Shown piece after piece: positions 12,993 through 33,010 of a stretch of DNA of 33,204 nt. How positions within the stretch are numbered: the stretch's first letter is position 1; each line of letters starts with the position of its first letter. The DNA is taken from contig JALSHB010000017.1 of assembly GCA_026982475.1 (NCBI GenBank), positions 1-33,204 of the forward strand, given 5' to 3'. Origin of the DNA: Chromatiales bacterium. Its GTDB lineage: Bacteria > Pseudomonadota > Gammaproteobacteria > SZUA-152. A program made the position numbers and the translations under genes. The notes beneath the pieces are model-generated. The model ran no database searches. It was not told the origin of the DNA and was given only the letters and a program-made list of their open reading frames with translations.

Positions 12993-13003
12993 GCGTTATG
13001 AAA

Positions 13004-14374
13004 TCAGCCCATGGGCCCAAGCAGGGCCTGCGCCGCCAGGCCAATGCCCAGTGTGAAAGCAAAGGCCACTACGATAACCAGATTGACCAGCGGCAAGGAC
13101 ACCGGTGCCGCTGCCGCCTGGGTATCGGCTTGCCGGTACATGACGACGACTATGCGCAGGTAGACGGCCAGGGACAGCACGCTGTTGAGGATCGCGACGA
13201 TCGCCAGCCAGGTAAAGCCGGCATCCATGGCGGCGCCGAACAGCAGGAACTTGCCGACGAAACCGGCCAGCGGCGGGATGCCGGCCAGGGACAGCAGGAA
13301 CACCACCATGGCAATCCCTATGGCGACATTTCTGCGCCCGGCGGCGGCGAAGTCGTCTAGGCTTCGGCCGATGCACATCACCACGGCGAAGGCACCCAGA
13401 TTCATCACTGCGTAGGCGGCAGAAAAAATGATCAGGGAGGTGGTTGCCAATGGGCTTGTGCCGACAGCAACGATAGCGAGCAGAAAATAGCCCGCCTGGG
13501 CAATGGATGAATAGGCCAGCAGTCGCACCACCTTGCCTTGTACCAGTGCCGCCAGATAGCCATAGGTCATGGTCAGCACGGAGATGACAGCGACAAGCAG
13601 CGGCCAATCGCTGCCTAATGGTAAGTCACGCACCACCTGCGCCAGCGCGAGGATGGCGCCGATCTTGGGTACCACCGACATATACGCGGCGATGGATACC
13701 GGGGCCCCCTGGTAGGCATCCGGCGCCCAGAAATGGAATGGCACCAGCGAGGCCTTGTAGCCCAGACCAACGATCACGGCTACCAGGCCAACGCTGGCGA
13801 TCAGTCGAGAATCCTCAAGCCGGGACAGATCGCTGAGCAGTGTCGTACCGGTGCCGCCAAACCAGTAACTGAGGCCGAAGATCATCACCGCGCCGGTCAC
13901 CGAGGCAAAGACGAAAAATTTCATCGCCGCCTCGGTGGCGGCATCATCGCGTGGATAGGCCACCAGGGCGAAGGAACCCAGACCGGAGAGCAGGACGCCC
14001 AGCACCAGCAGCATGGTGTCGCCGGCGCTGGCCAACACCAGCGAACCGAGGGTAACCAGCATCAGCAGTACATAAACCGTGCCCTCGCGGTCACTGCCGC
14101 CGAGTTCCGCGCGCGCCAGCAGTATCGACAGCGCGGTCGCGGGCAACAGGATGAGTTTTGCCCAGACGCTCAAACCATCGATGCGATAGGTACCGCCGAA
14201 GACACTGCTGTCCAAGCCCAGCAAGGGCAGACTCAAGCCGCTGGCGAGCAGTAGTCCGGACAGGGCGACGCCCAGTGCGATGCGCGGCAGGCGCAGCATT
14301 TCGGCCACCAGGGCGAAGACGATGGTCAACAGCAGGGTGATCTCGGGGGTCAGCAGGGCAAGCTCGGCCGCCAT
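13004..14374 (-). CDS. NuoN-like antiporter subunit of the second complex-I-like operon
   Basis: A 456-residue multi-helix membrane protein of the proton-pumping NuoN/NuoM/NuoL family. ATG 14374 starts MAAELALLTPEITLLLTIVF and overlaps the upstream nuoM-like stop by one base (TGATG). The open frame runs further upstream, but only as a shadow of that gene. The helix-7 lysine is kept in GYKASLVPFHFWAPDAYQGAPV (K207). The helix-5 glutamate aligned with E140 of the housekeeping NuoN is not: the segment reads LLVLGVLLSGLGSFALVA, with Val at about 127. Pumping by this subunit may therefore be altered. Divergence from the housekeeping copy is too large for a recent duplication. Confidence 0.9.
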   Translation of the reverse strand: MAAELALLTPEITLLLTIVFALVAEMLRLPRIALGVALSGLLLASGLSLPLLGLDSSVFGGTYRIDGLSVWAKLILLPATALSILLARAELGGSDREGTVYVLLMLVTLGSLVLASAGDTMLLVLGVLLSGLGSFALVAYPRDDAATEAAMKFFVFASVTGAVMIFGLSYWFGGTGTTLLSDLSRLEDSRLIASVGLVAVIVGLGYKASLVPFHFWAPDAYQGAPVSIAAYMSVVPKIGAILALAQVVRDLPLGSDWPLLVAVISVLTMTYGYLAALVQGKVVRLLAYSSIAQAGYFLLAIVAVGTSPLATTSLIIFSAAYAVMNLGAFAVVMCIGRSLDDFAAAGRRNVAIGIAMVVFLLSLAGIPPLAGFVGKFLLFGAAMDAGFTWLAIVAILNSVLSLAVYLRIVVVMYRQADTQAAAAPVSLPLVNLVIVVAFAFTLGIGLAAQALLGPMG

Positions 14375-15843
14375 CAGAATTGCAGCGCCGCAGTGGTCTT
14401 GTGGATGACGTCCAGCAACAGCGCCGGCGCAATGCCCACCACCACGATCAGTATCAGCAGTGGCGCCAGAGAGAGAACCTCGCGCGCATTCAGATCCTTC
14501 ATGCCGATCCATTGTTCACGGGGCTCGCCAAGAAACACCTTGCCGATGGCGCGCAGATACAAGCCAGCGGTCACCACGATGCCGAGGATGACGACCACGG
14601 CCACGGGCTCCACCCGCAGCGTCGCCAGGAATATCTGGAACTCGGCGGGGAAGTGCGCCAGGCCCGGCAGGCCCAGCGAGGCGAAGGCGGCCAACACGAA
14701 GGACCAGCCGAGTATCGGCGTTACCTTCAGCAGACCGCCGAATCGATCCATCTCCCGGGTGTGGGCGCGGTCCTGCAACATGCCGACCAGCAGGAACAGG
14801 GCGCCGGTGACCAGGCCATGGCTGACCATCTGCAACACGGAGCCATCCAGCGCCGTGGCGCGCACCGCCGGATCGACCGCCAGCGCGGCAATGGCAACGC
14901 CAACCACGACATAACCCATGTGATTCACCGAGGTGAGGGCGATCATCCGCTTGAGGTCGCTCTGCGCCAGCGCCGCGAAGGCGCCGTAGAGCGCGGCGAC
15001 CACGCCGAAGGCGAGCACGATGATACCGGCCTCCCGGAAGGCCTCCGGGGTCATCTGCAGAGAGAAACGCACCAGGCCATAGGTGCCGAATTTCAGCATC
15101 ACGCCGGCGAGGATGACACTGCCGGCCGCCGGCGCCTGCACATGTGCGGCCGGCAGCCAGGTGTGAAAGGGAAACACCGGTATCTTGACCGCGAAGGTGA
15201 ACAGCATGGCCGCCAGCGCCAGCATGGCGGCGCTGCCGCTCAATGGCGGGTTGTCTATCCAGGCGCGCATGTCGAAGGTCTGCGGCTCACTGCCAAGATA
15301 CATGCCGAGGATCGCCAGCAGCAGCGGCAGGCTGCCTAACAGGGTATAGATGAAGAACATCAGCGCCGCACGTTGGCGGTCCTCGTGTCCCCAGCCAGCG
15401 ATCATGAAATACATGGAGACCAGCGATACCTCGAAGAACACATAGAAAAGAATCGCGTCGAGGGCGGTGAAGGTGCCAATGGCGGCCGTTTCCAGCAACA
15501 GCATCAGCACCACATAGGCATGGGGCCGTTGCTTCACCTTGGCTGAATAGATGAAACTCAGAAAGAACAACACTGCGCTCAGCAGGACCAGCGGCAGGCT
15601 GATGCCATCCACGCCGACGCGGTAGGCGGCGCCGATGGCCGGCATCCACGCAAGTTCTTCGACCTGGGCAAAGCCTGTCTCGTTGACCCCGCGCGACCAC
15701 ATCCACAGGGCACCCAGCAGGGTCAGCCCACTGGTGACGATGCCGATGAGATGCGCGATGGATGCCGGCGACCGGCGCAGGGCCATGACGAGCAGCGCGC
15801 CAAGCAGGGGCAGGAACAGGGTGATGGACACAATGGGAAGCAC
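14374..15843 (-). CDS. NuoM-like antiporter subunit of the second complex-I-like operon
   Basis: A 489-residue membrane protein of the NuoM family. The key pump residues are present: helix-5 glutamate in ILFYVFFEVSLVSMYFMIAGWG (E138) and helix-7 lysine in FAVKIPVFPFHTWLPAAHVQAP (K220). QMVSHGLVTGALFLLVG and LKRMIALTSVNHMGYVVVG are also typical. The start is GTG at 15843, supported by AGGAG 7 bases upstream. A 127-base gap holding an inverted pair of short repeats separates it from the nuoL-like gene, the only large gap inside this operon apart from the one after the flavoprotein gene (24 bases). Confidence 0.93.
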   Translation of the reverse strand: MLPIVSITLFLPLLGALLVMALRRSPASIAHLIGIVTSGLTLLGALWMWSRGVNETGFAQVEELAWMPAIGAAYRVGVDGISLPLVLLSAVLFFLSFIYSAKVKQRPHAYVVLMLLLETAAIGTFTALDAILFYVFFEVSLVSMYFMIAGWGHEDRQRAALMFFIYTLLGSLPLLLAILGMYLGSEPQTFDMRAWIDNPPLSGSAAMLALAAMLFTFAVKIPVFPFHTWLPAAHVQAPAAGSVILAGVMLKFGTYGLVRFSLQMTPEAFREAGIIVLAFGVVAALYGAFAALAQSDLKRMIALTSVNHMGYVVVGVAIAALAVDPAVRATALDGSVLQMVSHGLVTGALFLLVGMLQDRAHTREMDRFGGLLKVTPILGWSFVLAAFASLGLPGLAHFPAEFQIFLATLRVEPVAVVVILGIVVTAGLYLRAIGKVFLGEPREQWIGMKDLNAREVLSLAPLLILIVVVGIAPALLLDVIHKTTAALQF

Positions 15844-15887
15844 TAACAGTCTCCTGTGGGAATCACTGAAGGTGTGATGCCGTTTTT

Positions 15888-15953
15888 GGAAGCGGCTTCA
15901 GCCGCGAAGCTTTTCTCAGTACAGCCTTCGTGGCTGAAATCGCCCCTGCGGCA
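15888..15953. repeat. REP-like inverted repeat pair inside the nuo-like operon
   Basis: Unit 1 (15888-15910) contains AGCGGCTTCAGCCGCGAAG, which folds on itself. Unit 2 (15925-15953), read on the other strand, contains GGCGATTTCAGCCACGAAGG, a diverged copy in opposite orientation. Two facing copies of a palindromic unit with this core are the usual form of REP elements in gammaproteobacteria, where RayT/TnpA-REP enzymes spread them. In the mRNA it would form a strong hairpin between the nuoL- and nuoM-like cistrons. Confidence 0.6.
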
Positions 15954-15970
15954 CACGGAAACAATACTGT

Positions 15971-17788
15971 TCATCGAAACAGTGAGGTCGCCAGCAGCAC
16001 GGAGAGAATCACCGCCGTAGCCACCACCGTGATGGCCATTTCGCGGTGGATCAGACCACTTTGCAGGGTGCGGGCGCGATTGCCGAGATCGACCATGCCG
16101 CGCACCAGGGCGAAGATCAGCCCGTCGATACCGCGGTCGTCACTGCGGCGTGCCGCCTGGCCGATGGCAAGACCAAGCCGGCCCACGGCCAGCACCGCAG
16201 CATATAGGCCGCGCTCCACGCGCTCGCAGCCACGGGCAATGGCGAAGGCGGGGCGTACTATCCAGGCATCGAAGCCACCGGCTATGGCAAAGCCCTGCCG
16301 GGCCCACGGCAACAGCGGCCCCAGCAGGCGCGGCGCCGGCACCAGCCAGCCCAGCGCAAGACCCGCCAGGGCTGCGCTGAGGCCGAGGACCTGGGCCAGG
16401 GTGCTCACGGGCAGGGTGGAATCGAGCAAGGTCTCGATGGCCGGGAAGGCGGCTCCCAGGGTGACGGCCAGGGTGACCAGCCCGGCCAGCCCGGCGGCCA
16501 TCCAGCCCAGTCCGGCGATGGGGCGTTGTTGCCTGTCGCCATGCCACAGGACGCGTAGCGCCCGCGCCATGTAGGCGCCGGTCAGCAAGGTGCCCGCAAG
16601 GGCGAAGGGGGTCAGTAGCAGGGCCGTGGGTGACGCCAGTGTGGCGGCGATGATGGCGTCCTTGGAGAAGAAGCCGCTCAGGGGCGGGATGCCGGCCAGC
16701 GCCAGCGCGGCCAGGGCAAAGGCGAGGAAAATGCGTGGGCGCTCACGCCCGGCGCCTTGCAGCTTGGTCAGTGCGGTGCTTTCCCGGCCGTGCTGGAATA
16801 CCCCGGCGCCGAGAAACAGGGAACTCTTGATGGCGGCGTGGGCGATCAGGTGCAACAGCGCCGCCAGTGGCACGCCAGCGCCCACCGCCACCAGCATCAG
16901 GCCGTATTGACTGGAGGTGGAGGCGGCCAGCAGACGCTTGAGATCGCGCTCGCCCAGTGCAATCAGGCCGGTGACCACCGTGGTGATGCCGCCGACGACA
17001 CCAACCACAAGTAGCGTTTCTGCCGGCAGCATGGGTGTCGTGCGGATCAGAAGGATCGCCCCGGCCGCCACCAGGGTGGCCGAATGCAGCAGTGCCGAGA
17101 CCGGCGTGGGTCCGGCCATGGCGCGTTGCAACCAGTCGTGCAACGGTGTCTGCGCCGACTTGCCCATGGCCGCCACCAGCAGCAGAAGTCCGGCGGCGAT
17201 CGCCGCGCCGCCGCCGGTGTTCAGGGTGGTGGCGATGTCACTGCTGCCGGCCTCGGCGATGAGGATGAATGCCGCGAGATAGAGCCCCAGATCTGCACTG
17301 CGGGTATAGAGGAAGGCGCGGCTGGCGGCGGAACCGACGCCGCTTCGCCGGTACCAGAAGCCGATCAGCAGGTAACTGCACAGGCCGATGAGTTCCCAGG
17401 CGGCGAGCAACAGGACCCAGTCACCGGCCAGCACCAGGGTTTGCATGGCGGCGATAAACAACAGCAGGGTGGCAAAGAAACGCACCGGTTCATCGTCCTG
17501 CCGCATGTAGCCCACGGCATAGACCAGCACCAGGCCAGCGATGATCGCGACCAGGGTGGAGAGCAGCGCCGTCAGCGGCGTGGCGATCAGGCGCAGGGGC
17601 ATGCCTGGCAGACCGGGCAGCAGTAATTCGCCAGTCACGCCGGAGAAGGCATCGCTCAGCAGAGCGATGCTGGCGAGCAGGGCGATGCTGGCGCCGAGCA
17701 GCGCCAGCGCCACGGCGGCGCGCCGCAGCAGCAGGATCAGCACCGCCGCGACGAGGGGGGCGAGGATGACACTGGCGATCAGGCTCAC
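15971..17788 (-). CDS. NuoL-like antiporter subunit of the second complex-I-like operon
   Basis: A 605-residue membrane protein of the NuoL/HyfB family, about 45 residues shorter than the housekeeping NuoL. The charged pump residues are kept: E132 in LLLAAWELIGLCSYLLIGFWY, K210 in AMGKSAQTPLHDWL, H235 in SALLHSATLV, and K321 in LHLIAHAAIKSSLFLGAG, then SGFFSKDAIIA. The usual AYSTLSQLGYM reads AASTSSQYGLM here. The C-terminal third keeps an amphipathic stretch and a final anchor (MAITVVATAVILSVLLATS). The start is GTG at 17788, overlapping the nuoK-like stop as GTGA. Confidence 0.93.
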   Translation of the reverse strand: MSLIASVILAPLVAAVLILLLRRAAVALALLGASIALLASIALLSDAFSGVTGELLLPGLPGMPLRLIATPLTALLSTLVAIIAGLVLVYAVGYMRQDDEPVRFFATLLLFIAAMQTLVLAGDWVLLLAAWELIGLCSYLLIGFWYRRSGVGSAASRAFLYTRSADLGLYLAAFILIAEAGSSDIATTLNTGGGAAIAAGLLLLVAAMGKSAQTPLHDWLQRAMAGPTPVSALLHSATLVAAGAILLIRTTPMLPAETLLVVGVVGGITTVVTGLIALGERDLKRLLAASTSSQYGLMLVAVGAGVPLAALLHLIAHAAIKSSLFLGAGVFQHGRESTALTKLQGAGRERPRIFLAFALAALALAGIPPLSGFFSKDAIIAATLASPTALLLTPFALAGTLLTGAYMARALRVLWHGDRQQRPIAGLGWMAAGLAGLVTLAVTLGAAFPAIETLLDSTLPVSTLAQVLGLSAALAGLALGWLVPAPRLLGPLLPWARQGFAIAGGFDAWIVRPAFAIARGCERVERGLYAAVLAVGRLGLAIGQAARRSDDRGIDGLIFALVRGMVDLGNRARTLQSGLIHREMAITVVATAVILSVLLATSLFR

Positions 17789-18096
17789 CCCTTCAGCTCC
17801 GTTGCTTCTTCCATTTCCACCGAGCCCCTGGCGCGGAAGCGGGCGATGGCCACGCCGAAGCCCACCGCCATCTCGATCGCCATCACCGTCATGATGATCA
17901 GCACGAACATCTGCCCGGCCGGGTTGTCCGGGTGGAGATAGCGCCAGAAGGCCACCAGGTTGATCATCGCCCCGGCGAGGATCAGTTCCACACCCATCAT
18001 GATCATCACCAGGTTGGTTTGCGACAGGGCGCCGTAGATGCCGGTGCCGAACAATGCCGCGCCGGTGATGAGGGCGATGAGAAGCTCGATGCTCAT
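17785..18096 (-). CDS. NuoK-like subunit of the second complex-I-like operon
   Basis: A 103-residue three-helix membrane protein starting MSIELLIALITGAALFGTG. It keeps both conserved buried acids: E37 in MIMMGVELILAGAMINLVAF and E75 in MTVMAIEMAVGFGVAIARF. The true ATG is at 18096, in an ATGA overlap with the nuoJ-like stop; a longer open frame upstream is a shadow. The C-terminal tail is acidic (EMEEATELKG). Proton transfer through this subunit looks possible. Confidence 0.93.
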   Translation of the reverse strand: MSIELLIALITGAALFGTGIYGALSQTNLVMIMMGVELILAGAMINLVAFWRYLHPDNPAGQMFVLIIMTVMAIEMAVGFGVAIARFRARGSVEMEEATELKG

Positions 18097-18614
18097 GGTT
18101 TGCCGTTCCTCTTGACGGGCTGAATGGCCACCGCGGTAGCAGCGATCATGGCGGTGAGTATGGTGATGCCGGCGGTCTCGAAGATCAGCATCGAGCGTCC
18201 CAGCAGTTCGAGTCCCAGGTCGACGGTCTGCTGGGCGGCATCCGGCGGCGTGCCGGTCACGGGCCCCCAGTCGACGAACACGGCGACCGCCACGGCGGCG
18301 ATGAAGGCCACCAGGCCGGCGCCCAGCGACAGGCGCTTCTGATGGGTCATGTCCATCTCGCCGAGGCCACCCGGGTCCATCATGAACATCACCATGAAGA
18401 TGGCCATGATGCTCATCTCGGTGGCCATCATCATGATCTGCAATACGCCGAGGAATTCCACCTGCATGCTCAGGAACATGGCGCCCAGGGCGGTTTGCGA
18501 GAACAGCAGGGCGAGGGCGGAGCGCACCATGGAAAAGGTGCGGAATACGACGATGCCGAACCACACTGCCGCAAGGCCAAAGAAAGCGATGAACAACATC
18601 TGCGCAGTCATCAT
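18093..18614 (-). CDS. NuoJ-like subunit with a methionine-rich transmembrane helix
   Basis: A 173-residue membrane protein. ATG 18614 (MMTAQMLFIAFFG) makes an ATGA overlap with the nuoH-like stop; a second ATG follows at once. After the conserved EFL (53-55), the helix that normally reads [17 protein letters not shown] reads QIMMMATEMSIMAIFMVMFMMD: Met at 61, 62, 63, 67, 70, 74, 76, 78 and 79, a glutamate at 66, then GEMDM at 85-89. The conserved Tyr and Gly of normal NuoJ are lost. The rest (five helices, C-terminal helix FETAGITILTAMIAATAVAI) follows the family. Clustered Met in a membrane helix can bind Cu(I) or Ag(I), but this is inference. Confidence 0.88.
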   Translation of the reverse strand: MMTAQMLFIAFFGLAAVWFGIVVFRTFSMVRSALALLFSQTALGAMFLSMQVEFLGVLQIMMMATEMSIMAIFMVMFMMDPGGLGEMDMTHQKRLSLGAGLVAFIAAVAVAVFVDWGPVTGTPPDAAQQTVDLGLELLGRSMLIFETAGITILTAMIAATAVAIQPVKRNGKP

Positions 18615-19507
18615 GAAAACACCAGCACGAGGATGCCGACGAGAAGGATGTTCAGCAGCGCCAGGGGGATGCCCAGCATCCAGCACCAACCCAACAGATC
18701 CGTTTCGCGGATACGCGGCATGTAACGGCCGGCCGCCAGCATGATGGCGGTGACCAGGAGAATCTTGATGGCGCTCCATGCCCAGGGCGGCAGCCACGGA
18801 CCCTGCCAGCCGCCAAGATAGAAGACCACCGTTGCCGCCGCCAGGGTGATGATCAACACCAGGCGGGCGAGCCTAAACACCGCCAGCCGCACGCCGGCAT
18901 ACTCGGCCTCCACGCCACCGGCCAGTTCGCCCTTCGCCGTTGGCAGGTCGAAGGGCGGCAGAAAGGCCAGCGCCATGGCGGCGACGAAAAACAGGATGAA
19001 ACCCAAGGGCTGGTAGACGATGTTCCAGACCGTTGCCTGGGAGACCACGATCTGCGTGGTCAGTAACGATTCGGCGCGCATCACCACGGCGGTGATGGGC
19101 ATGACGATGAGCATGGCATAGGCGATCAACTGACCCAGGAAGCGCCAGCCACCAATCATGGCGTAGGCGCCGTTCGGCCCCCAGCCGGCCATCAGCAGGG
19201 CCACCAGCACGTAGACCAGGGCCGCATTGATGAACAGTGCGCCGGTCGCCAGGTCCGTGATGATCAGCCCCGGCGCCAGTGGCACCACCGCCGCGGCGAG
19301 CACCGCCGAGGCCAGCAGCAGCACCGGGGCAAGCTCGAAGAACACGCGGTCGGGCTTGCGGGGTACGATGGATTCCCGCCCCAGCAGGGCGATGCCGGCC
19401 AGTAGTGGCGAGCCTAACTGGAATCGTCCAGTCATGGTCCAGCTCTCAAGGACCGCAACCAGGTAGGCGCCGAGCGCCAGTAACAGCAGTATCACTGCCG
19501 TTGTCAT
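18611..19507 (-). CDS. NuoH-like subunit of the second complex-I-like operon
   Basis: A 298-residue membrane protein of the NuoH/HyfC family, shorter than usual NuoH (about 325-350). It keeps the loop and helix FLPPFDLPTAKGELAGGVEAEYAGVRLAVF, which matches NuoH [20 protein letters not shown], though the acidic PEGE part has become PTAKGE. The first loop, normally with a GPNRVGP motif, reads GRFQLGSPLLAGIALLGRESIVPRKPDR. NuoH forms the quinone tunnel and the start of the proton path in complex I, so these changes may mean quinone is bound differently or not at all. ATGA overlap with the upstream fusion gene fixes the start. Confidence 0.88.
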   Translation of the reverse strand: MTTAVILLLLALGAYLVAVLESWTMTGRFQLGSPLLAGIALLGRESIVPRKPDRVFFELAPVLLLASAVLAAAVVPLAPGLIITDLATGALFINAALVYVLVALLMAGWGPNGAYAMIGGWRFLGQLIAYAMLIVMPITAVVMRAESLLTTQIVVSQATVWNIVYQPLGFILFFVAAMALAFLPPFDLPTAKGELAGGVEAEYAGVRLAVFRLARLVLIITLAAATVVFYLGGWQGPWLPPWAWSAIKILLVTAIMLAAGRYMPRIRETDLLGWCWMLGIPLALLNILLVGILVLVFS

Positions 19508-21321
19508 TGCTGTATCTCCCAGGGTGACAGATCCAGGGAGTTGACGGCCGTCAGGGCATCGCCCAGCGCCTGCTGCGCGGTCAGCGCCTCGACCAGGCCG
19601 AGGTGGGATGTGGAGGGTGTCTCCAGCCGGGCCGACGTGACCTGACCCCTGGTCAGGGTCAATTGCAGGCGGGCCGCGCCGCGCGGCGTTTCGACGACCG
19701 CCTCGCCGCTTGCGGAGAGATCGTGGACCGGGGGCGGGGTGGGCAAGGCCATGGCGCCTGCCGCTTCGATGAGGGCCAGGCTGTGAAGCATCTCGTCCAG
19801 TCGAACCTGCAGGCGGGCGAGGGTATCGCCTTGCCTGCGACGGGCGGCCGTGAAACCCAACAGGGTGTAGATACCGTCCACCTGGCGTGCATCGTGATCA
19901 ATGCCGGCGGCGCGCGCCACGGGGCCGCGCAAGGCCGTGTCCGCCGTCAGCCGACCGATGCCGGCGGTGCGCGATTTCAGCAGGGGTGTTCGCTGCAATT
20001 TTTTGATCAGGGAGTGGATCGCCGGTTTCAGCGCCGGGATTTGTTTCAGGTCGGCACGAAGGAACGCCAGTTGCAGTGAGGTGGCGCGTTGCCTGAGCCA
20101 GTCGAAGCCGGTCTGCTGACCAAACAGCGCCAGCCAGCCCAGGTGACTCGTGACCCGCTCCCGTTCGAGGGCGGCGGCGCGCGCGCAGGCCTCGTCGACA
20201 GACAGGTTCATGCCGGCGGCCTTTTCCAGCGCCTGGCAGGCCAGCCATCCATAGGCCACCGGGGCCAGCGGGTCCAGACCGGTCAGCCGTTCGACGAACG
20301 CCGTCGTCCCCATGGGTAAAGCCCGAAGAAAATCCCCGTTTTTCGTTAGAGAGCGGGCGTTGCAGCCGGCCACCGTGTCGCCATCGAGTGTCAGCATCAA
20401 CAGCAGCCCAGCGGGCAGGCCGGGGAAAAACGGCCCGAAGGGAGCGTCGATCCAGTCCATCGGCAGGTCATCGCCACTGCGCGGCAGATCCCGGGTGACC
20501 TCGACCATGGACATGAAGGTCATGGCGTCATGGTCCATGGCGCTGTGATCCATGCCGGCATGTGCAGGTTGGTGCGCCGTCTCCGCCGTTGTTTCACGCG
20601 GCTCCAGATTCATGCCGCACTTGGGGCAGGAGCCGGGTTCGTTCCGCACGACCTCGGGATGCATGGGGCAGGTGTATTCGATGCCTGTATCATGCGCCTC
20701 TGTCGAATGAGTGCTTTTGCCATGCGTCAAAGCCATCGGCATGTCTGTACCGGTGCCTGACGGTGGGTGGGTCCCTTGTGCATGCCCTCTGTCGGCCTGT
20801 GCCTCACGCGGAACCAGGTTCATCCCGCACTTGGGGCAGGCGCCGGGTTCGTCACGCACGACTTCGGGGTGCATGGGGCAGGTATATTCGATACGAACTT
20901 GCAACACCGGCGCGTCGAAGTCGGCGATGTCCGGACGAAAGGCACCCTTAGCAAAGGCATGGCGTAACTGCTGCACACCGTCGAGCAGAGCCTGCTGGGA
21001 AAGTCCTGTGGCGACATCCGCGGTGGGCAGCGGTGGCAGGGCTTCCGCGCCCAGGGTGAATATTGCTCGTGGGCGCATCATCTGGGCATAAACAACCGCC
21101 GCGGCGTCGCGCAGCGCCGGGGGCAATGTGCCCACCACCAGCAGTACACTGGCATGGCGTGGACTGGCAACCGGTTGCAGTCCGGCCGCTTCTATATCCA
21201 GCCCATGGGCGCGTGCAATGTCGCTGCCGGGAATGACAAAGGTACCGAGGTCATGGGCCATCGCTGCCGCAATCAGTCGCCGCAGTCCGGTGTGCTTTCC
21301 CTGTCGGGCGCCGGTGATCAT
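19504..21321 (-). CDS. NuoB-like / two heavy-metal-binding domains / NuoD-like fusion protein
   Basis: A 605-residue soluble protein from ATG 21321 (MITGARQGKHTGL), with GGAG 8 bases upstream, 13 bases after the nuoA-like gene. Residues 1-130 are NuoB/HyfI-like (ASPRHASVLLVVGTLPPALRDA at 52-73; YAQMMRPRAIFTLGA) but have no cysteine, so cluster N2 is impossible. Residues 145-171 and 215-241 are two HMBD domains (YTCPMHPEVV...CPKCGMNL). The linkers are His/Met/Asp-rich, including MDHSAMDHDAM at 257-267. Residues 272-605 are NuoD/hydrogenase-large-subunit-like (FGPFFPGLPAGLLLMLTLDGD at 295-315; ERERVTSHLGWLALFG at 386-401; GDTLARLQVRLDEMLHSLALIEAAG). It has no CxxC, so no NiFe site, and the family GPxHPxxHG quinone His is replaced (Ala304). 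NuoC is absent. It probably forms the connecting module on the membrane arm. Confidence 0.88.
   Translation of the reverse strand: MITGARQGKHTGLRRLIAAAMAHDLGTFVIPGSDIARAHGLDIEAAGLQPVASPRHASVLLVVGTLPPALRDAAAVVYAQMMRPRAIFTLGAEALPPLPTADVATGLSQQALLDGVQQLRHAFAKGAFRPDIADFDAPVLQVRIEYTCPMHPEVVRDEPGACPKCGMNLVPREAQADRGHAQGTHPPSGTGTDMPMALTHGKSTHSTEAHDTGIEYTCPMHPEVVRNEPGSCPKCGMNLEPRETTAETAHQPAHAGMDHSAMDHDAMTFMSMVEVTRDLPRSGDDLPMDWIDAPFGPFFPGLPAGLLLMLTLDGDTVAGCNARSLTKNGDFLRALPMGTTAFVERLTGLDPLAPVAYGWLACQALEKAAGMNLSVDEACARAAALERERVTSHLGWLALFGQQTGFDWLRQRATSLQLAFLRADLKQIPALKPAIHSLIKKLQRTPLLKSRTAGIGRLTADTALRGPVARAAGIDHDARQVDGIYTLLGFTAARRRQGDTLARLQVRLDEMLHSLALIEAAGAMALPTPPPVHDLSASGEAVVETPRGAARLQLTLTRGQVTSARLETPSTSHLGLVEALTAQQALGDALTAVNSLDLSPWEIQQ
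20595..20892. repeat. Internal duplication encoding the two heavy-metal-binding domains
   Basis: The 88-base segments 20595-20682 and 20805-20892 are direct repeats, 210 bases apart and in frame, with 78 of 88 bases identical by my count. Each encodes one CPMHPE...CPKCGM domain of the fusion protein. The high identity, compared with the diverged linkers between them, points to a fairly recent duplication or gene conversion. Confidence 0.85.
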
Positions 21322-21334
21322 TCGTCGTCTCCGT

Positions 21335-21697
21335 TCATTGCCTGCGCAGAGCGCCCTGGCTCCAGCCATACAACAAGCCCAGAAACAAAATGGCGAGAAA
21401 GACGCCCATGTCGAGTAAGGCAACCAGCCCCACCTGCTTGTATACCACCGCCCAGGGATACATGTAGGCCATTTCCATATCGAAGGCCAGGAACAACAAT
21501 GCATAGCCATAGTAGCGCGCGTGGTAACGCACCCACACCGGGTCGCGTGATAGCTGGCCCGCGCTTGCGGGTACATCCTTGGCGGATTCCTGGCGCGTCC
21601 TGGCGATGGCGCGGGCAAGTGCATACAGGCTGAGGACAAACCCCAGTGTGCCCGTGATCAGGCCCAGCAGCAGTCCATATTGTGCCAATGTGCTCAT
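21335..21697 (-). CDS. NuoA-like subunit of the second complex-I-like operon
   Basis: A 120-residue, three-helix membrane protein (ND3/NuoA family). The conserved block FLAFDMEMAYMYPWAVVY is present, with the buried acidic residues, followed by VFLAILFLGLLYGWSQGALR, close to the usual VFLLILLVGLIYAWRKGAL. The normal YECG loop between helices 1 and 2, which carries a conserved Cys near the quinone site, is replaced (SAGQLSRDPVWVRYHARYY), and the protein has no cysteine. ATG 21697 (MSTLAQYG) has AGGA 9 bases upstream; TTG 21703 is an alternative. It follows the flavoprotein gene by 24 bases. Confidence 0.9.
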   Translation of the reverse strand: MSTLAQYGLLLGLITGTLGFVLSLYALARAIARTRQESAKDVPASAGQLSRDPVWVRYHARYYGYALLFLAFDMEMAYMYPWAVVYKQVGLVALLDMGVFLAILFLGLLYGWSQGALRRQ

Positions 21698-21721
21698 TTC
21701 CAATCCTCGTGGCAGGGCAGG

Positions 21722-22906
21722 CTACAGATGACGTAAATAGAACAGGTACAAGCGCTCAAACATATCCTTGACTTGAACGAGCCTGCGCGAGTGACGCGGG
21801 AAGATGTTCCAGAACGGAGGTCGGTCATCGCTGGCGGCATGCAGCCACATCGCATCGTCTTCCATGTTGAGAATACAGGAAAGCTCAAAACGATAGGTGT
21901 GCACAGGTTCATTTCCCTTCAACACAAGCCGCATGTTCCTGGCGGCCGCCTGCGCGCGTAATTGCGCCATATGTGCTTGATGTGGTACCCAGGGCGGTGG
22001 ATTTTCATGATTGCTGCAGTCACCGGCGGCGAAAACCTTGTCCAGTCCCTTTACGCGACCATACTTGTCGACCTCGATGTGGCCGCCAACGGAAACCGGC
22101 AGACAGGATTCGCCCACCCATTCCGGCGCCTTGATGCCGGATGTAAACAGGACCAGATCCGCCTCGCGGAAAGCGCCGTCTGCATCGATCATGCCGCCCT
22201 TGACGAACTCAGCCGGTTTGTAGCCATAGTCGAGAATGATGCCGCGCTCCAGCAGTCTGTCGGTGATGGCGCCAGTCTCTCCGGGTTCTATGTCTGGGGA
22301 AAAAAGATGGATCTCAAATTTGTCCCTCAGGCCCCTTTTCTTCAGTGCATAGTCGAGCAGGCAGGCGCACTCATACATTTGTCCGCCGCGGCCGGCGACG
22401 AAGCCATCGCGCTTGTTGAGCTCGAAACCTACATAGATGATGCCTGCCTGCAACGCGTCCAGTCTTTGCATAAAGGCAACCATATCGTCGGGCCCGGAAC
22501 AGGGTGAAAAGGTATGAATGCCTGTGCCTGGAATATCGTCGATCCTGAAGGCAGGGCCAGTGCCTATGAACAGGGCGTCGTTGGTGAAACGGCCCTGGGT
22601 CGTCAGCACGGTTCTTCCACCATCCTGAATGTCGATGACCTGATCGTCCACAAAGCGGATGTTTCTTCGCCACAGCCATGGGCGTATATCCAGCGTAATG
22701 GCATCCTTGGTTTTCTTGCCGATGATGAATTCGGGTATGGCGGGAAAATAGGTGAACTGACCATTGCCGATCAAGGTGATGTCATAGCGCGAATAGAGCC
22801 GGCGAAGAAAAAAGGCAATGACAGGAAACGCAGGTAAAGAGAGGAAATAGCCGACAAAAAACAGGGAGGCAAAGCCATTACCGATGATGACGATCCTCTT
22901 CTTCAT
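21722..22906 (-). CDS. NDH-2 / sulfide:quinone reductase-like FAD-dependent oxidoreductase
   Basis: A 394-residue two-dinucleotide-fold flavoprotein. The FAD-binding motif IVIIGNGFAS is at residues 5-14, a second GTGPAF follows FTNDALF, and DKVFAAGDCSNHENPPPWVPHQAHMAQ is the FAD-pyrophosphate block of the NDH-2/SQR superfamily. The C-terminal FERLYLFYLRHL is amphipathic and could sit on the membrane. Four cysteines (CSGPDD, YECACLL, ESCLP) do not clearly match the SQR catalytic set, so I favour an NDH-2-like NAD(P)H dehydrogenase. ATG 22906 (MKKRIV) is preferred; GTG 22915 is possible. As first gene of the nuo-like operon it may supply electrons to quinone or to the complex. Confidence 0.8.
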   Translation of the reverse strand: MKKRIVIIGNGFASLFFVGYFLSLPAFPVIAFFLRRLYSRYDITLIGNGQFTYFPAIPEFIIGKKTKDAITLDIRPWLWRRNIRFVDDQVIDIQDGGRTVLTTQGRFTNDALFIGTGPAFRIDDIPGTGIHTFSPCSGPDDMVAFMQRLDALQAGIIYVGFELNKRDGFVAGRGGQMYECACLLDYALKKRGLRDKFEIHLFSPDIEPGETGAITDRLLERGIILDYGYKPAEFVKGGMIDADGAFREADLVLFTSGIKAPEWVGESCLPVSVGGHIEVDKYGRVKGLDKVFAAGDCSNHENPPPWVPHQAHMAQLRAQAAARNMRLVLKGNEPVHTYRFELSCILNMEDDAMWLHAASDDRPPFWNIFPRHSRRLVQVKDMFERLYLFYLRHL

Positions 22907-23377
22907 GACACCCACTTATTGGTTGTTGTTTTTGAGCTTCTCGCCAGGCCGTCGAATGACGAGGCTCCATCAGTATACTGCACAAACCGAGGAAGAAAAT
23001 ATCCTTTCTCATTTGTCCGGGTCGTCGGTTTCCACATCTTATATACGTGACCAGTACCCTGCTTCAACCCATGGGTTGGTCAGGGGTTCGGCATGCAGGA
23101 TTGCGGCATGGCAAGGATATAAACACTGCGGGCCAGTTACGTGAATTTTCCATCCCTTGTGCTAGTGAACTATCCTCATGAATGATCCGATGCTTGGATG
23201 ATCGGGTTCGGACGTTGATCATGTCGTCCCTGCCGGAAATATGGATGTGGAAGAAGTCGTGACGGAGGGAAGGGTGCGTATCACCTACAACCATGTCCAT
23301 GAAGAAAGTCATTGACCTGTGTGCAGCACCCAGGGTCTATGCTTAGGACATACCAATTGGATCAAGGGCTATAGAAC
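22907..23377. other. 471-base intergenic region between the nuo-like operon and merR
   Basis: Regulatory region between the divergent nuo-like operon (-) and the merR cluster (+). I see a perfect 10-base palindrome CAGTATACTG at 22971-22980, which contains a TATACT in the direction of the flavoprotein gene but has no good -35 partner. I also see the MerR-type promoter at 23312-23343. The remaining 300 bases hold no recognisable gene or RNA. An 82-codon open frame on the minus strand (23064-23312) has no family resemblance and no ribosome binding site that I can see. Confidence 0.6.
23312..23343 (+). promoter_or_regulatory. MerR-type promoter and operator for the merR cluster
   Basis: The -35 TTGACC (23312-23317) and -10 TATGCT (23338-23343) are separated by 20 bases, the overlong spacing typical of promoters that MerR proteins activate by untwisting. 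The spacer region holds a 19-base dyad, CCTGTGTGCAGCACCCAGG (23316-23334), where 8 of 9 base pairs are symmetric about 23325. It lies 35 bases before merR, so the regulator and downstream genes are probably controlled by merR itself. Confidence 0.78.
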
Positions 23378-23782
23378 ATGTTAACCGTCAGTGAATTGTC
23401 AAAGGTGGCGCAAACGACACCAGACTCCATTCGCCATTATGTGCGCATTGGCCTGCTGAATCCCTCGCGTAATCCTGACAATGGCTATAAGCTCTTTAAC
23501 AGCAATGATGTTAAAAAGGTTAAGTTCATCTGTCGGGCCAAGGGGCTTGGGTTCACGTTGCACGATATACAGATCATCTTTGATCACAGCAGTGTGGGTG
23601 AATCACCTTGCCCAATCGTACGCCGGATTATTCAACAGCGTATCAATGAGAACAGGGACAGGCTGGTCGAGTTGAACCGATTGCAGCAACGCATGGACGA
23701 GGCGCTGGAAAAATGGAAATCAATGCCGGATGGTGAACCCGATGGAGATGCAATCTGTTATCTGATTGAGTCGACGAATTGA
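23378..23782 (+). CDS. MerR-family metal-responsive transcriptional regulator
   Basis: A 134-residue dimeric DNA-binding protein. The N-terminal winged helix-turn-helix reads MLTVSELSKVAQTTPDSIRHYVRIGLL, followed by the family KLFNSNDVKKVKFICRAKGLGFTL. A long dimerisation helix (81-114) and a short C-terminal metal loop follow. Cysteines are at 52, 78 and 127. C78 matches the helix-5 Cys of the divalent-metal sensors (MerR, ZntR, CadR, PbrR), while CueR-type Cu(I) sensors use two loop cysteines; only one loop Cys is visible here. The inducing metal is therefore uncertain. Its own promoter carries a MerR-type operator. The downstream YHS genes follow in the same direction. Confidence 0.9.
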   Translation: MLTVSELSKVAQTTPDSIRHYVRIGLLNPSRNPDNGYKLFNSNDVKKVKFICRAKGLGFTLHDIQIIFDHSSVGESPCPIVRRIIQQRINENRDRLVELNRLQQRMDEALEKWKSMPDGEPDGDAICYLIESTN

Positions 23783-23859
23783 CGAATGAGATCCACCTTT
23801 CCTCGCGGTAGCAGCTGAGGGAGGATCCTGTGAAACACGACTGGAAAAGGAGAATGATC

Positions 23860-24114
23860 ATGAAAACGGACCCGGTATGTGGCATGCATGTCAGTGAGGA
23901 CTCTGAGTTCAGCACGGAATATGCAGGCAAAAGGCACTATTTTTGCAGTGAAAGCTGCCTGAACAAATTCCTTGCCGAACCAGGACAGTTTGTTTCCGAG
24001 GGAGAAGGTGATGAGACGACAATATACACCTGTCCCATGCACCCGGAGGTCAGAGAGAAAGGGCCTGGCCGTTGCCCAAAATGTGGTATGTATCTGGAGC
24101 CACTTGCCTCATAG
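23860..24114 (+). CDS. YHS domain plus heavy-metal-binding domain protein
   Basis: An 84-residue soluble protein of two small metal-binding units. Residues 3-42 are a YHS domain (DPVCGMHV...YFCSESCLNKFLAEP). Residues 56-82 are an HMBD unit (YTCPMHPEVREKGPGRCPKCGMYLEP). These units also occur at the ends of P-type metal ATPases and in CusB-type proteins, so a free form is probably a metal carrier or buffer. ATG 23860 is chosen because AAGGAG lies 7 bases upstream; GTG 23830 and ATG 23854 are in frame but have poor spacing. The HMBD closely matches the two in the NuoB/NuoD-like fusion. Confidence 0.88.
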   Translation: MKTDPVCGMHVSEDSEFSTEYAGKRHYFCSESCLNKFLAEPGQFVSEGEGDETTIYTCPMHPEVREKGPGRCPKCGMYLEPLAS

Positions 24115-24141
24115 TGCTTGCTGGTTGAAGAGGATTGGTTG

Positions 24142-24816
24142 ATGCAGGATGGAACGGAATATGCCTATGGCATGTGGGTGGTAGCTGCCTTCAATGCCGG
24201 AATTTTCCTCTTTTTCATGTTGAGTTTCCTCAAGCCGCGAGGCAGCGAGGAATGGCGCAGCATGGGAGTGGTGGTCGCCTTTCTGGTGGCCCTGTTTAGC
24301 GAAATGTATGGTTTTCCCTTGACCATCTATCTGTTGAGTGGCTGGCTGGGTGATGCATATCCAGTCCTGCAACCCTTCAGCCACAAATTCGGCCACCTCT
24401 GGGTGGTGGTGTTCGGCGGTTCAACCCTGGCCTGGGCGTTGGTCATGGGGTTGAGTCTGGTATTGATGCTTATGGGTTACACCTTGCTTTCAAAAGGCTG
24501 GACGCAGATTCATGCCGCTCGTGGCGGCCTGGTCACCGATGGCATCTATGCCTATGTTCGTCATCCACAGTACACGGGCCTGTTCCTTGTCATCATCGGC
24601 TTTCTGGTGCAGTGGCCCACACTGCTCACGGTATTGATGGCGCCGATTATGCTCTATGCCTACGTGCGCCTGGCGCGCAACGAAGAGCGGCGCGCCAAGG
24701 CGGAGTTTGGCGAAGAATACAACGACTATGTGCGCAAGACCCCGGCATTTTTTCCGCCTCGCAATCAATGGAAGGCGTTTCTCACCGTGCAGGTACGTGA
24801 CGAAGAGGTACCGTAG
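24142..24816 (+). CDS. Isoprenylcysteine carboxyl methyltransferase (ICMT) family membrane protein
   Basis: A 224-residue membrane protein with about five helices. The C-terminal half has the ICMT/PEMT-like SAM-binding signature: GIYAYVRHPQYTGLFLVIIGF, then RLARNEERRAKAEFGEEYNDYVRKTPAFFPP. Bacterial members methylate small or lipid-like substrates, usually unknown; a Cys-carboxyl substrate is not implied. ATG 24142 is chosen since AAGAGGA lies 9-15 bases upstream; a TTG at 24118 has no such site. It sits between two YHS genes in the MerR-controlled cluster, a pairing seen in other metal-resistance islands. Confidence 0.85.
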   Translation: MQDGTEYAYGMWVVAAFNAGIFLFFMLSFLKPRGSEEWRSMGVVVAFLVALFSEMYGFPLTIYLLSGWLGDAYPVLQPFSHKFGHLWVVVFGGSTLAWALVMGLSLVLMLMGYTLLSKGWTQIHAARGGLVTDGIYAYVRHPQYTGLFLVIIGFLVQWPTLLTVLMAPIMLYAYVRLARNEERRAKAEFGEEYNDYVRKTPAFFPPRNQWKAFLTVQVRDEEVP

Positions 24817-24875
24817 CTGATGTTATCGGCAGCAATATAGGGTTGCCGGGTCAATGACAGACCAGGAGAAGAGAT

Positions 24876-25166
24876 ATGGAAGGCTTGGGTTCGCTGTTGC
24901 TGTTCGCCGCTTTCATTTACCTCATGATGCGCTTTGGCTGTGGTGCGCACATGGTGCACGGCCATGGACGTCATGCTCATGGCAGCAGCACAGAAAAATA
25001 CATCGACCCGGTCTGTGATATGGAAGTCGATACCGAACAGGGCTATGGCAAGATGCATCAGGGGACGCTGTATCGCTTTTGCAGCAAGAACTGCCTCGAC
25101 AAGTTCGATGCCGACCCTGAACGTTATCTCAATAAAGAAAAGGAGTTGGATCATGACAACAGGTGA
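24876..25166 (+). CDS. Membrane-anchored YHS domain protein with His-rich linker
   Basis: A 96-residue protein. Residues 4-20 form one hydrophobic helix (GSLLLFAAFIYLMMRFG). A histidine-rich stretch HMVHGHGRHAHG follows at 25-36. Residues 43-86 form a YHS domain (YIDPVCDMEV...YRFCSKNCLDKFDADPERYL) with three Cys likely to bind metal. AGGAGAAGAGAT before ATG 24876 supports the start. The end overlaps the next gene by 14 bases. Together with the preceding YHS-HMBD protein it suggests handling of a soft metal at the membrane. Confidence 0.88.
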   Translation: MEGLGSLLLFAAFIYLMMRFGCGAHMVHGHGRHAHGSSTEKYIDPVCDMEVDTEQGYGKMHQGTLYRFCSKNCLDKFDADPERYLNKEKELDHDNR

Positions 25167-25452
25167 GCGTCGCAGACAGGGGATTTCATTGCTCGGCGTT
25201 GGTCATGCCACCAGCCTTACCCTGGCGATCAGTTTTGCGTTATGTGTTGCGTTCGATTTCTTCCTTCCCGACCTCGCCATGTACCAAGCATGGCAAACGC
25301 TTTTGCCCGGTTTCGAGTGGCTCAGCTGGAAAAGCTTTTTTCTCGGGTTGTTGGAGGCCTATGGTTACGGTTGGTATTTCGCCCTTCTCTGGGTGCCGAT
25401 CTACAACGTTGTTACATTGCGGGGTGGAAAGGAGAAACGCCGCCATGGATGA
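25153..25452 (+). CDS. DUF5676-type small membrane protein
   Basis: A 99-residue protein with two hydrophobic segments (LTLAISFALCVAFDFFLP and YGWYFALLWVPIYNVV). It resembles DUF5676 proteins, which recur next to YHS, ICMT and metal-efflux genes and have no known biochemical role. AAGGAG 8 bases before ATG 25153 supports this start, which lies within the last codons of the YHS gene; the longer open frame upstream is a shadow of that gene. Confidence 0.75.
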   Translation: MTTGERRRQGISLLGVGHATSLTLAISFALCVAFDFFLPDLAMYQAWQTLLPGFEWLSWKSFFLGLLEAYGYGWYFALLWVPIYNVVTLRGGKEKRRHG

Positions 25453-25520
25453 CGCCCGAGTATTGTGATTGGTTTCTGCAAGAAAAAAGTCCGGAACAAC
25501 ATGCGCCATGGCACCATTGA
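25449..25520 (+). CDS. Possible 23-residue peptide coupled to the DUF5676 gene
   Basis: ATG 25449 overlaps the DUF5676 stop as ATGA and encodes MTPEYCDWFLQEKSPEQHAPWHH. The peptide is rich in aromatic residues with one Cys and three His. The GGAG upstream is about 15 bases away, a poor distance. It may be chance; the overlap and composition are the only support. Confidence 0.22.
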   Translation: MTPEYCDWFLQEKSPEQHAPWHH

Positions 25521-25564
25521 GGCCGTGTACATAAGGCGCTTGTTGATTCCGATGGGAGAGAAAG

Positions 25565-25897
25565 ATGCTGGAACATCGCGGAAAAAAACGCTGCCGAATC
25601 GCACTGGATGTTGTTGTCCGCAATCGCAGCGGTCTGGCCCTGAACGGCACAACCCGCGATATCTCCACTGAGGGCATGTTTATCAACCTGACATCAAAGG
25701 CCATAGCGGCGCGCACCATGGTGGAACTCGAATTGTCACCCTGTGGCTGGCTGCACGGCTGGGTGGTGCATGCAGGAAAAGAGGGTATCGGTGGCATGTT
25801 TCTTTCAAATGATAATGGTGAGAGATGTCTCCTCAAGATCGAGAAGTTTCTGTCAGCAGATACTCGTGAAAGGCGCGGAACCGGGCGCACGGATTGA
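25565..25897 (+). CDS. PilZ domain protein (probable c-di-GMP receptor)
   Basis: A 110-residue single-domain protein. The N-terminal EHRGKKRCRIAL resembles the RxxxR motif, and TRDISTEGMFI is the D/NxSxxG motif on the beta barrel; both bind c-di-GMP in PilZ proteins. GWVVHAGKEGIGGMFLS fits the later strands. The start has GGGAGAGAAAG directly upstream. It follows the metal cluster by about 45 bases after the possible peptide and may be transcribed with it. The target of the signal is not evident. Confidence 0.85.
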   Translation: MLEHRGKKRCRIALDVVVRNRSGLALNGTTRDISTEGMFINLTSKAIAARTMVELELSPCGWLHGWVVHAGKEGIGGMFLSNDNGERCLLKIEKFLSADTRERRGTGRTD

Positions 25898-30621: not shown

Positions 30622-31473
30622 ATGAGAAACAACATCCAAGGCGGCATCACCAGCTTGCTCCTCATCCTTCTTCTGGTGGGCAGCCTGTTGTATCTGCTAC
30701 AACCCGGCATGGTTTTCTTCCCGTACCGTGAACTTTCCACCACGCCGACAGAGTGGGGGATGGCCTTTGAAGATGTCTCGATAGAGACGCGGGACGGCAC
30801 ACGGCTGCACGGCTGGTACATCCCGCATCCGGGGTCCGGCCGGGTTTTGCTTTTCTTTCATGGCAATGCCGGCAACATATCCCACCGGCGTGAATCCGTG
30901 GAGATCTTTCACCGGCTTGGGTTGAACGTATTCATGATCGATTATCGTGGTTACGGACACAGCCAGGGCAAACCCAGCGAGGCGGGCCTCTATGAGGATG
31001 CCAGGGCCGCCTGGCAATATCTGACGGTGGAGAGGGGCATCGAAGAAGCGAACATCATCCTGTTCGGACGATCGTTGGGCGCTGCGGTGGCGAGCAATCT
31101 GGCTTCGGAAGTCCAGCCAGGTGCCGTGATCCTCGAGTCGGCATTCAGTTCAGCGCGAGACATGGCCAACGTGATTCTCCCAGCACTTTCATACCTGACG
31201 ATTTTGCGTTTCACGTTTGACACGACGGAACATCTTCGGGGCGTAACGTCACCGTTGCTCGTGTTGCACAGCCCAGAGGATGACATCGTCCCATTCCGCC
31301 TGGGAGAAAAGGTTTATCGGGCGGCGAGTCAACCGAAGCGCTTCGTCGTCATCGAGGGGGATCACAATTCAGGCTTCCTGCGCAGCCAACCGCACTACGA
31401 ACAGGCACTGGAACAGTTCATTTCGAGATACACAGCCGATGCTTCGCTCGCCGGTTCTGAGCGAATTCCATGA
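30622..31473 (+). CDS. Membrane-anchored alpha/beta hydrolase
   Basis: A 283-residue serine hydrolase of the BEM46/ABHD13-like group. An N-terminal helix (residues 10-26) anchors it. FFHGNAGNISHR (78-89) is the oxyanion region, GRSLGA holds the nucleophile (S151), and SPEDDIVP (D220/D221) and EGDHNSG (H248) complete the triad. Such proteins are lipases or esterases with unknown natural substrates. It follows the DUF302 gene by 43 bases and converges on the HhH gene, with dif between them. Confidence 0.88.
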   Translation: MRNNIQGGITSLLLILLLVGSLLYLLQPGMVFFPYRELSTTPTEWGMAFEDVSIETRDGTRLHGWYIPHPGSGRVLLFFHGNAGNISHRRESVEIFHRLGLNVFMIDYRGYGHSQGKPSEAGLYEDARAAWQYLTVERGIEEANIILFGRSLGAAVASNLASEVQPGAVILESAFSSARDMANVILPALSYLTILRFTFDTTEHLRGVTSPLLVLHSPEDDIVPFRLGEKVYRAASQPKRFVVIEGDHNSGFLRSQPHYEQALEQFISRYTADASLAGSERIP

Positions 31474-31500
31474 AGCAACGAGATATGGATGAAGCAGGCA

Positions 31501-31528
31501 ATTTAACATAATATACATTATGCGCACT
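31501..31528 (-). other. dif: dif site: XerCD chromosome-dimer resolution site
   Basis: Read on the minus strand, this 28-base site has XerC arm AGTGCGCATAA, central TGTATA and XerD arm TTATGTTAAAT. The E. coli dif as I recall it is the same except for G at the first base (27 of 28). On the plus strand the XerD arm is 31501-31511 and the XerC arm is 31518-31528. It lies between convergent genes, and the FtsK-guiding motif GGGNAGGG switches strand across it. XerC and XerD join the two arms to resolve chromosome dimers at division, so the replication terminus is here. Confidence 0.93.
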
Positions 31529-31555
31529 AGGGGGTGGGCCTGTACCTGGTGCCAG

Positions 31556-32806
31556 TCAGTGCACCACCCGGGCAATCTTCTTGATGGTCTCCCTGCTCTC
31601 ACCGAAGGTGCAGATGGCGTCACAGTGGGTACGCAGGTCGGAGAACAGGATGTAGTGCATCTCGATGTGACTGCTGCGCAAGGATGGCCGGTGCAGTTGC
31701 AGCAGCAGTTCCTTCTCGCGCTGGTCAGGGATGATGAGGAACAGCGTCGAGGGATCTTCCGGAAAGGAGTGATACAGGTCCGTCAGGCGCAGGATGCCGG
31801 AATAGATGGAAGTGCTTTTTTCCACCTCGAAGGCGCTGACGATGCGCCTGCTGCCTTTTTCGAACCACATGACGTCGATCAGGGCGATGGTGTTGCGGGT
31901 GTCGGCATCGACATCGATTTCCGGAAACGCCGGCAGGCAGAGGAATGAAAAGCTGTTGCCGTCGTGGCAGCGCGAGCGGTCGTTGGAGGCGCTGATCACG
32001 TCATAGCCGAGGGCCTGACCGATTCTCAGCAGGTGGTACTGCATCTCGGTGTGCAGACCTTCCTGCTGCTTTTCGCTGAGCACCTCTGAATGGCGCTTCT
32101 TCAACAGCTTTTCGATCTTCTTCCGCTCGGCCTCGCTGAGTTCTTCCGCCTCGTCGAGCAGGATCTTGTTGACGCCGATATCGAACAACAGGCCGGTGAA
32201 CGCCCCCAGGTCTCTCGACAGGAGCTCTCTGTGCCTGTCGTTCATTTCCACGATGACTTCCCGCATGCGCAGATACTCCCGCCACGAGCCCAGTTTCACC
32301 TTTTCCCCGAACAGGCGGTTGAAGCCCTTGACGATGGCGGTGTTGAAGGGCGGAATGATTTCCGGGTGCAGAAAATACAGGATGTTGGCGACCGCCGGGC
32401 CGAGTCCCTTGATGTTCAACTGATCGAGCCGGATGATTTCGCGTAGAAGTTGTTCTTCACTGCCCGCCCTGTGGCAGTTTTCCAGGAACTGGCCGAAGGC
32501 CCGCTGGTTGCCCGGGTTCTCGTAGATGTCTGGAATGCGCAGCTTGGGCTTCCAGTAGAAGGCGTGCGAGGCGCCGATGAACACCTGCTTCTGTTCGGTG
32601 ATGCAGTTGAGGACGAACTCCAGTGACGAGCCCTTGTAGTCGTTGCCGAAGGTCCCCTGACGGATGTCCTGCACCACGTCCCGGACCCCGCGGCGGATGG
32701 AGCGGAAGGCCTTGAGTCGCTCGTCGTTGTTGATGAACCAGGTGTTGAAGACCGACTCCGGGTCGGCCCTGTAGTCGTGCAGCAGTTCCTTCAGTCCTCT
32801 CTCCAT
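31556..32806 (-). CDS. Helix-hairpin-helix protein, possibly a PD-(D/E)XK-type nuclease
   Basis: A 416-residue soluble protein with no signal peptide or membrane helices. Residues 129-149 look like a helix-hairpin-helix DNA-binding motif (LNIKGLGPAVANILYFLHPEI). A charged coiled stretch at 215-247 (EAEELSEAERKKIEKLLKKR) separates this from a C-terminal domain with IALIDVMW (D311) and SAFEVEKSTS (E327, E329, K330), which could form a PD-(D/E)XK-like active site with E254. Similar proteins are sometimes annotated as type II restriction endonucleases, but no methyltransferase is nearby. ATG 32806 follows AGGCACCCGATGG-like sequence with a weak ribosome site. It ends 28 bases from dif. Confidence 0.6.
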   Translation of the reverse strand: MERGLKELLHDYRADPESVFNTWFINNDERLKAFRSIRRGVRDVVQDIRQGTFGNDYKGSSLEFVLNCITEQKQVFIGASHAFYWKPKLRIPDIYENPGNQRAFGQFLENCHRAGSEEQLLREIIRLDQLNIKGLGPAVANILYFLHPEIIPPFNTAIVKGFNRLFGEKVKLGSWREYLRMREVIVEMNDRHRELLSRDLGAFTGLLFDIGVNKILLDEAEELSEAERKKIEKLLKKRHSEVLSEKQQEGLHTEMQYHLLRIGQALGYDVISASNDRSRCHDGNSFSFLCLPAFPEIDVDADTRNTIALIDVMWFEKGSRRIVSAFEVEKSTSIYSGILRLTDLYHSFPEDPSTLFLIIPDQREKELLLQLHRPSLRSSHIEMHYILFSDLRTHCDAICTFGESRETIKKIARVVH

Positions 32807-32929: not shown

Positions 32930-33010
32930 GCGGGCCCGCGTGTGGGCCAGGTCCTCCCCTGCCCTGCCTGTTTCCATCCGCACGATGTCCTTCGGGCGCT
33001 ACCGTCTTCA

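Follow-up and report, generated by a model that had tools for sequence, protein, structure and literature searches.

The window analysed here, 33,204 bases long, makes up an entire contig (G000:C17) in a draft genome that comprises 2,999,968 bases in 224 contigs. Close to its right end, an 82-bp non-coding gap harbours a 28-mer with the layout of a dif site: an 11-bp XerC arm on the higher-coordinate side, six central bases, and a conserved 11-bp XerD arm on the lower-coordinate side (Table 1). The G+C content of the 28-mer is 25%. The two flanking genes converge on the site, as the ends and strands of their reading frames show. A consensus scan of the gap detected neither a terminator nor a promoter, and neither RNA families nor tRNAs were found in the window.

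Table 1. Coordinates of the dif site, its flanking genes and the KOPS-like octamers in the window.
Feature	Position	Strand	Sequence or evidence
dif 28-mer	31501-31528	-	AGTGCGCATAATGTATATTATGTTAAAT
XerC arm	31518-31528	-	AGTGCGCATAA
Central 6 bp	31512-31517	-	TGTATA
XerD arm, perfect	31501-31511	-	TTATGTTAAAT
Intergenic gap with dif, 82 bp, non-coding	31474-31555		Reading frames end at 31473 (+) and 31556 (-)
Alpha/beta hydrolase, 283 aa, outside the dif system	30622-31473	+	Pfam Hydrolase_4, 2.4e-17
416-aa gene, outside the dif system	31556-32806	-	Weak type II restriction enzyme match, PADLOC REase_II, 1.5e-4
KOPS-like octamer toward dif, first of eight on + strand	6352-6359	+	GGGNAGGG
Seven further KOPS-like octamers	Starts 8268, 10729, 11408, 16409, 23267, 26394, 30249	+	GGGNAGGG
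KOPS-like octamer beyond dif, toward dif, only one to the right	32957-32964	-	GGGNAGGG

No Pfam family matched the 416-aa protein. Its gene ends 28 bp from dif and is patchy in the family; copies that are 77-79% identical occur in G006 and G015, the former located off the dif contig. The hydrolase has its nearest named homologues in Chromatiales and other Gammaproteobacteria, and no dif adjoins the hydrolase loci of the named genomes.

The neighbouring genes on the contig are ordinary chromosomal ones, such as nuo genes and moe/mob cofactor genes. The ordinary nuo genes are located at 1-6 kb; a second, distinct set of complex-I-like genes occupies 11832-22915 on the minus strand. It includes three antiporter-type subunits (matching the NuoN, Proton_antipo_M and NuoL-like families), together with a chain 4L-like and an NADHdh subunit. 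The 49-kDa-like protein of this set (19504-21639) bears heavy-metal-binding (HMBD) domains, and is adjoined by a pyridine-nucleotide disulphide oxidoreductase-like protein.

Identity, copy number and conservation of the 28-mer

The 28-mer matches the E. coli dif at 27 of 28 positions, the sole mismatch being G to A at position 1. Both the identity of the site and this count agree with the original prediction, and none of 100 shuffled sequences yields a dif match at up to 3 mismatches. The chance expectation of a match with at most 1 mismatch is about 6e-10 for 3 Mb on both strands. The prediction that dif should occur once in the chromosome is likewise borne out: a search of the whole draft genome with the dif pattern returns one match at up to 3 mismatches and no second site, and in the window the intact 11-bp arms are present at 31501-31528 only.

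The site is shared with related genomes. Among 24 genomes of the family, 15 match dif at up to 3 mismatches, including the genome studied here and five congeners; four of these congeners carry an identical 28-mer and one a single change. Within the genus, the 28-mer has a mean pairwise identity of 0.988, and the 100-bp flanks one of 0.25-0.27, equal to random. A conserved 28-mer amid random flanks is the pattern that would be expected of a selected site whose surroundings have been reshuffled. No dif was detected even by a looser pattern in seven of the 24 genomes, mostly incomplete ones; an eighth genome, G008, presents only a doubtful site with 2 mismatches (G008:C167:4477-4500). Genomes that gave no dif-like site even by the looser pattern include the well-covered relatives G015 and G018. 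For G015, G018 and G008, an assembly gap or divergence of the site may be the reason.

The genome also encodes the proteins that act at such a site. XerC (TIGR02224, 362 bits) and XerD (TIGR02225, 403 bits) both score above the curated cut-offs, and an FtsK gamma domain is present (PF09397, 97 bits). By analogy with the E. coli system, recombination between sister chromosomes would generate a dimer, and FtsK, loaded on the polarised GGGNAGGG octamers, would pump DNA at the septum toward dif. Activation by the FtsK gamma domain, of XerD first and of XerC second, on a pair of aligned dif copies would then split the dimer.

We considered two other origins for the 28-mer. It could be a mimic of dif belonging to a mobile element, i.e. 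the att site of a phage or island instead of the chromosomal dif, since elements are known to integrate at dif (PMC5357621) and one relative, G019, has such an element at its dif. However, one dif at up to 3 mismatches in the draft genome leaves no attL/attR pair, both arms are intact, the 28-mer is likewise fixed in congeners, whose flanks are unrelated, and the neighbouring nuo and moe/mob genes are chromosomal in character, so that we regard a mimic as highly improbable. Alternatively, the 28-mer could serve dimer resolution on a plasmid or second replicon instead of the main chromosome, given that the contig is only 33 kb long and that secondary chromosomes also carry dif sites. This seems less probable still, because the contig contains NADH-quinone oxidoreductase genes matching NuoL, NuoM and NuoN along with molybdenum cofactor genes, which are typical of chromosomes, and the genome has one dif only.

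Replication terminus and octamer polarity

In the window itself, the GC skew is weak (0.015 to the left of dif), and its cumulative maximum falls at the contig end and not at dif. With 1.7 kb only on the right side, the skew of the window is uninformative by itself. Because the genome is split into 224 contigs and the sequence extends only 1.7 kb beyond dif, the skew was measured in four relatives with long contigs. In all four, it is clearly positive before dif and negative after it, and the cumulative maximum lies 154 bp (G007), 2.0 kb (G020), 2.7 kb (G023) and 11.7 kb (G009) from dif. These distances are within the usual range, the published median between dif and the skew maximum being 7,277 bp (PMC2731167).

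The orientation of the KOPS-like octamers points to the same place. All nine GGGNAGGG octamers in the window are directed toward dif, eight of eight on the plus strand to the left and the single one to the right on the minus strand. This polarity, with eight or more octamers forward and no more than one reverse, is reached by 0.5% of first-order Markov sequences (P = 0.005). Across the relatives, with G019 left out, 75 of 85 octamers are directed toward dif. No matS (MatP) site was found in the window.

The skew peaks near dif and the octamer convergence in relatives thus support the placement of the window at the terminus, as had been proposed from the sequence. A dif site marks the terminus region; the forks of E. 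coli are arrested at Tus sites and not at dif (PMC3025954). The site sets this window of a draft genome near the terminus, and replication would proceed rightward toward dif over 1-31.5 kb. Consequently, the minus-strand genes at 11.8-22.9 kb would be transcribed head-on to replication; the orientation of the genes together with the octamer polarity lends support to the earlier claim that this operon runs against the fork.

In the window, a MerR-methyltransferase-PilZ block (23378-25897) adjoins dif on the side of the XerD arm, but in the congener G004 (G004:C80) it is found on the XerC side. This switch of sides suggests an inversion around the terminus.

On the basis of the sequence, the single copy, the presence of XerC, XerD and the FtsK gamma domain, the conservation among congeners, and the skew peak and octamer polarity in relatives, we conclude that the 28-mer is most likely the single chromosomal dif site, used for chromosome-dimer resolution (probability approximately 0.97). 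It is a real, canonical and ordinary dif near the terminus.

A conjugative element between two dif copies in a relative

The original prediction also described dif as a target of XerCD-using phages and mobile elements. This is true of dif generally but does not extend to the genome studied here, where no second dif is seen at up to 3 mismatches and hence nothing indicates an insertion at the site. An integrative mobile element exploiting Xer (IMEX) would be flanked by two dif-like sites; this genome has one such site, and G019 has two.

In G019, two direct dif copies are located 53.4 kb apart (G019:C77 25624-79042), an altered copy, AGTTCGCATAATGTATATTATGTTATGC, at 25624 and an intact copy, AGTTCGCATAATGTATATTATGTTAAAT, at 79015. 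The last bases of the XerD arm are changed in the altered copy (TTATGTTATGC). The approximately 53 kb between the copies encodes a MobH relaxase, a TraD-like coupling protein, TraU, TraG and TrbI-like proteins, as well as integrating-conjugative-element proteins, a topoisomerase and a ParA-type ATPase. The relaxase adjoins the altered dif and the ATPase adjoins the intact one; a Tn3-family transposase gene is located just outside the relaxase-side dif.

In its layout, the element agrees with the gonococcal genetic island, one end of which is formed by a dif whose XerD arm is divergent (PMC5357621). We infer from this one draft genome that it is a gonococcal-genetic-island-like conjugative element inserted at dif. 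As of 2014, such systems outside Neisseria had no assignable insertion site (PMC4207684). Although the dif locus is ordinary, we are inclined to think that in this family, and thus outside Neisseria, MobH-type conjugative islands such as that of G019 also use it as an integration site by means of the XerCD of the host.

Comparison with known dif sites

The sites published in PMC2731167 match the E. coli dif at 26/28 (Neisseria meningitidis), 25/28 (Thiobacillus denitrificans) and 24/28 (Nitrosococcus oceani) positions. Since the N. meningitidis site reaches 26 of 28, a match of 27 of 28 does little to single out Gammaproteobacteria; the gammaproteobacterial host that had been read from dif is better supported by the homologues of the adjacent hydrolase.

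Apart from placing the window, the site adds one more case of a well-described and widely conserved system. It resembles the dif/XerCD-FtsK system of E. coli in 27 of 28 bases, the 11-6-11 layout, the single copy, the XerC, XerD and FtsK gamma proteins, and the converging GGGNAGGG octamers, and differs from it in the outermost base of the XerC arm and, as dif sites usually do, in the genes around it. With the dif sites of other Proteobacteria (PMC2731167), it shares an identical XerD arm, a non-coding location and low G+C content; a position near the skew maximum, as those sites have, is seen for dif in the four relatives. Unlike the sites of N. meningitidis (AGTTCGCATAATGTATATTATGTTAAAT; Carnoy and Roten 2009, PMC2731167) and of Nitrosococcus oceani, another member of Chromatiales (TGTTCGCATAATACATATTATGTTAAAT; PMC2731167), it carries different bases in the outer XerC arm, and the Nitrosococcus site deviates also at two central bases.
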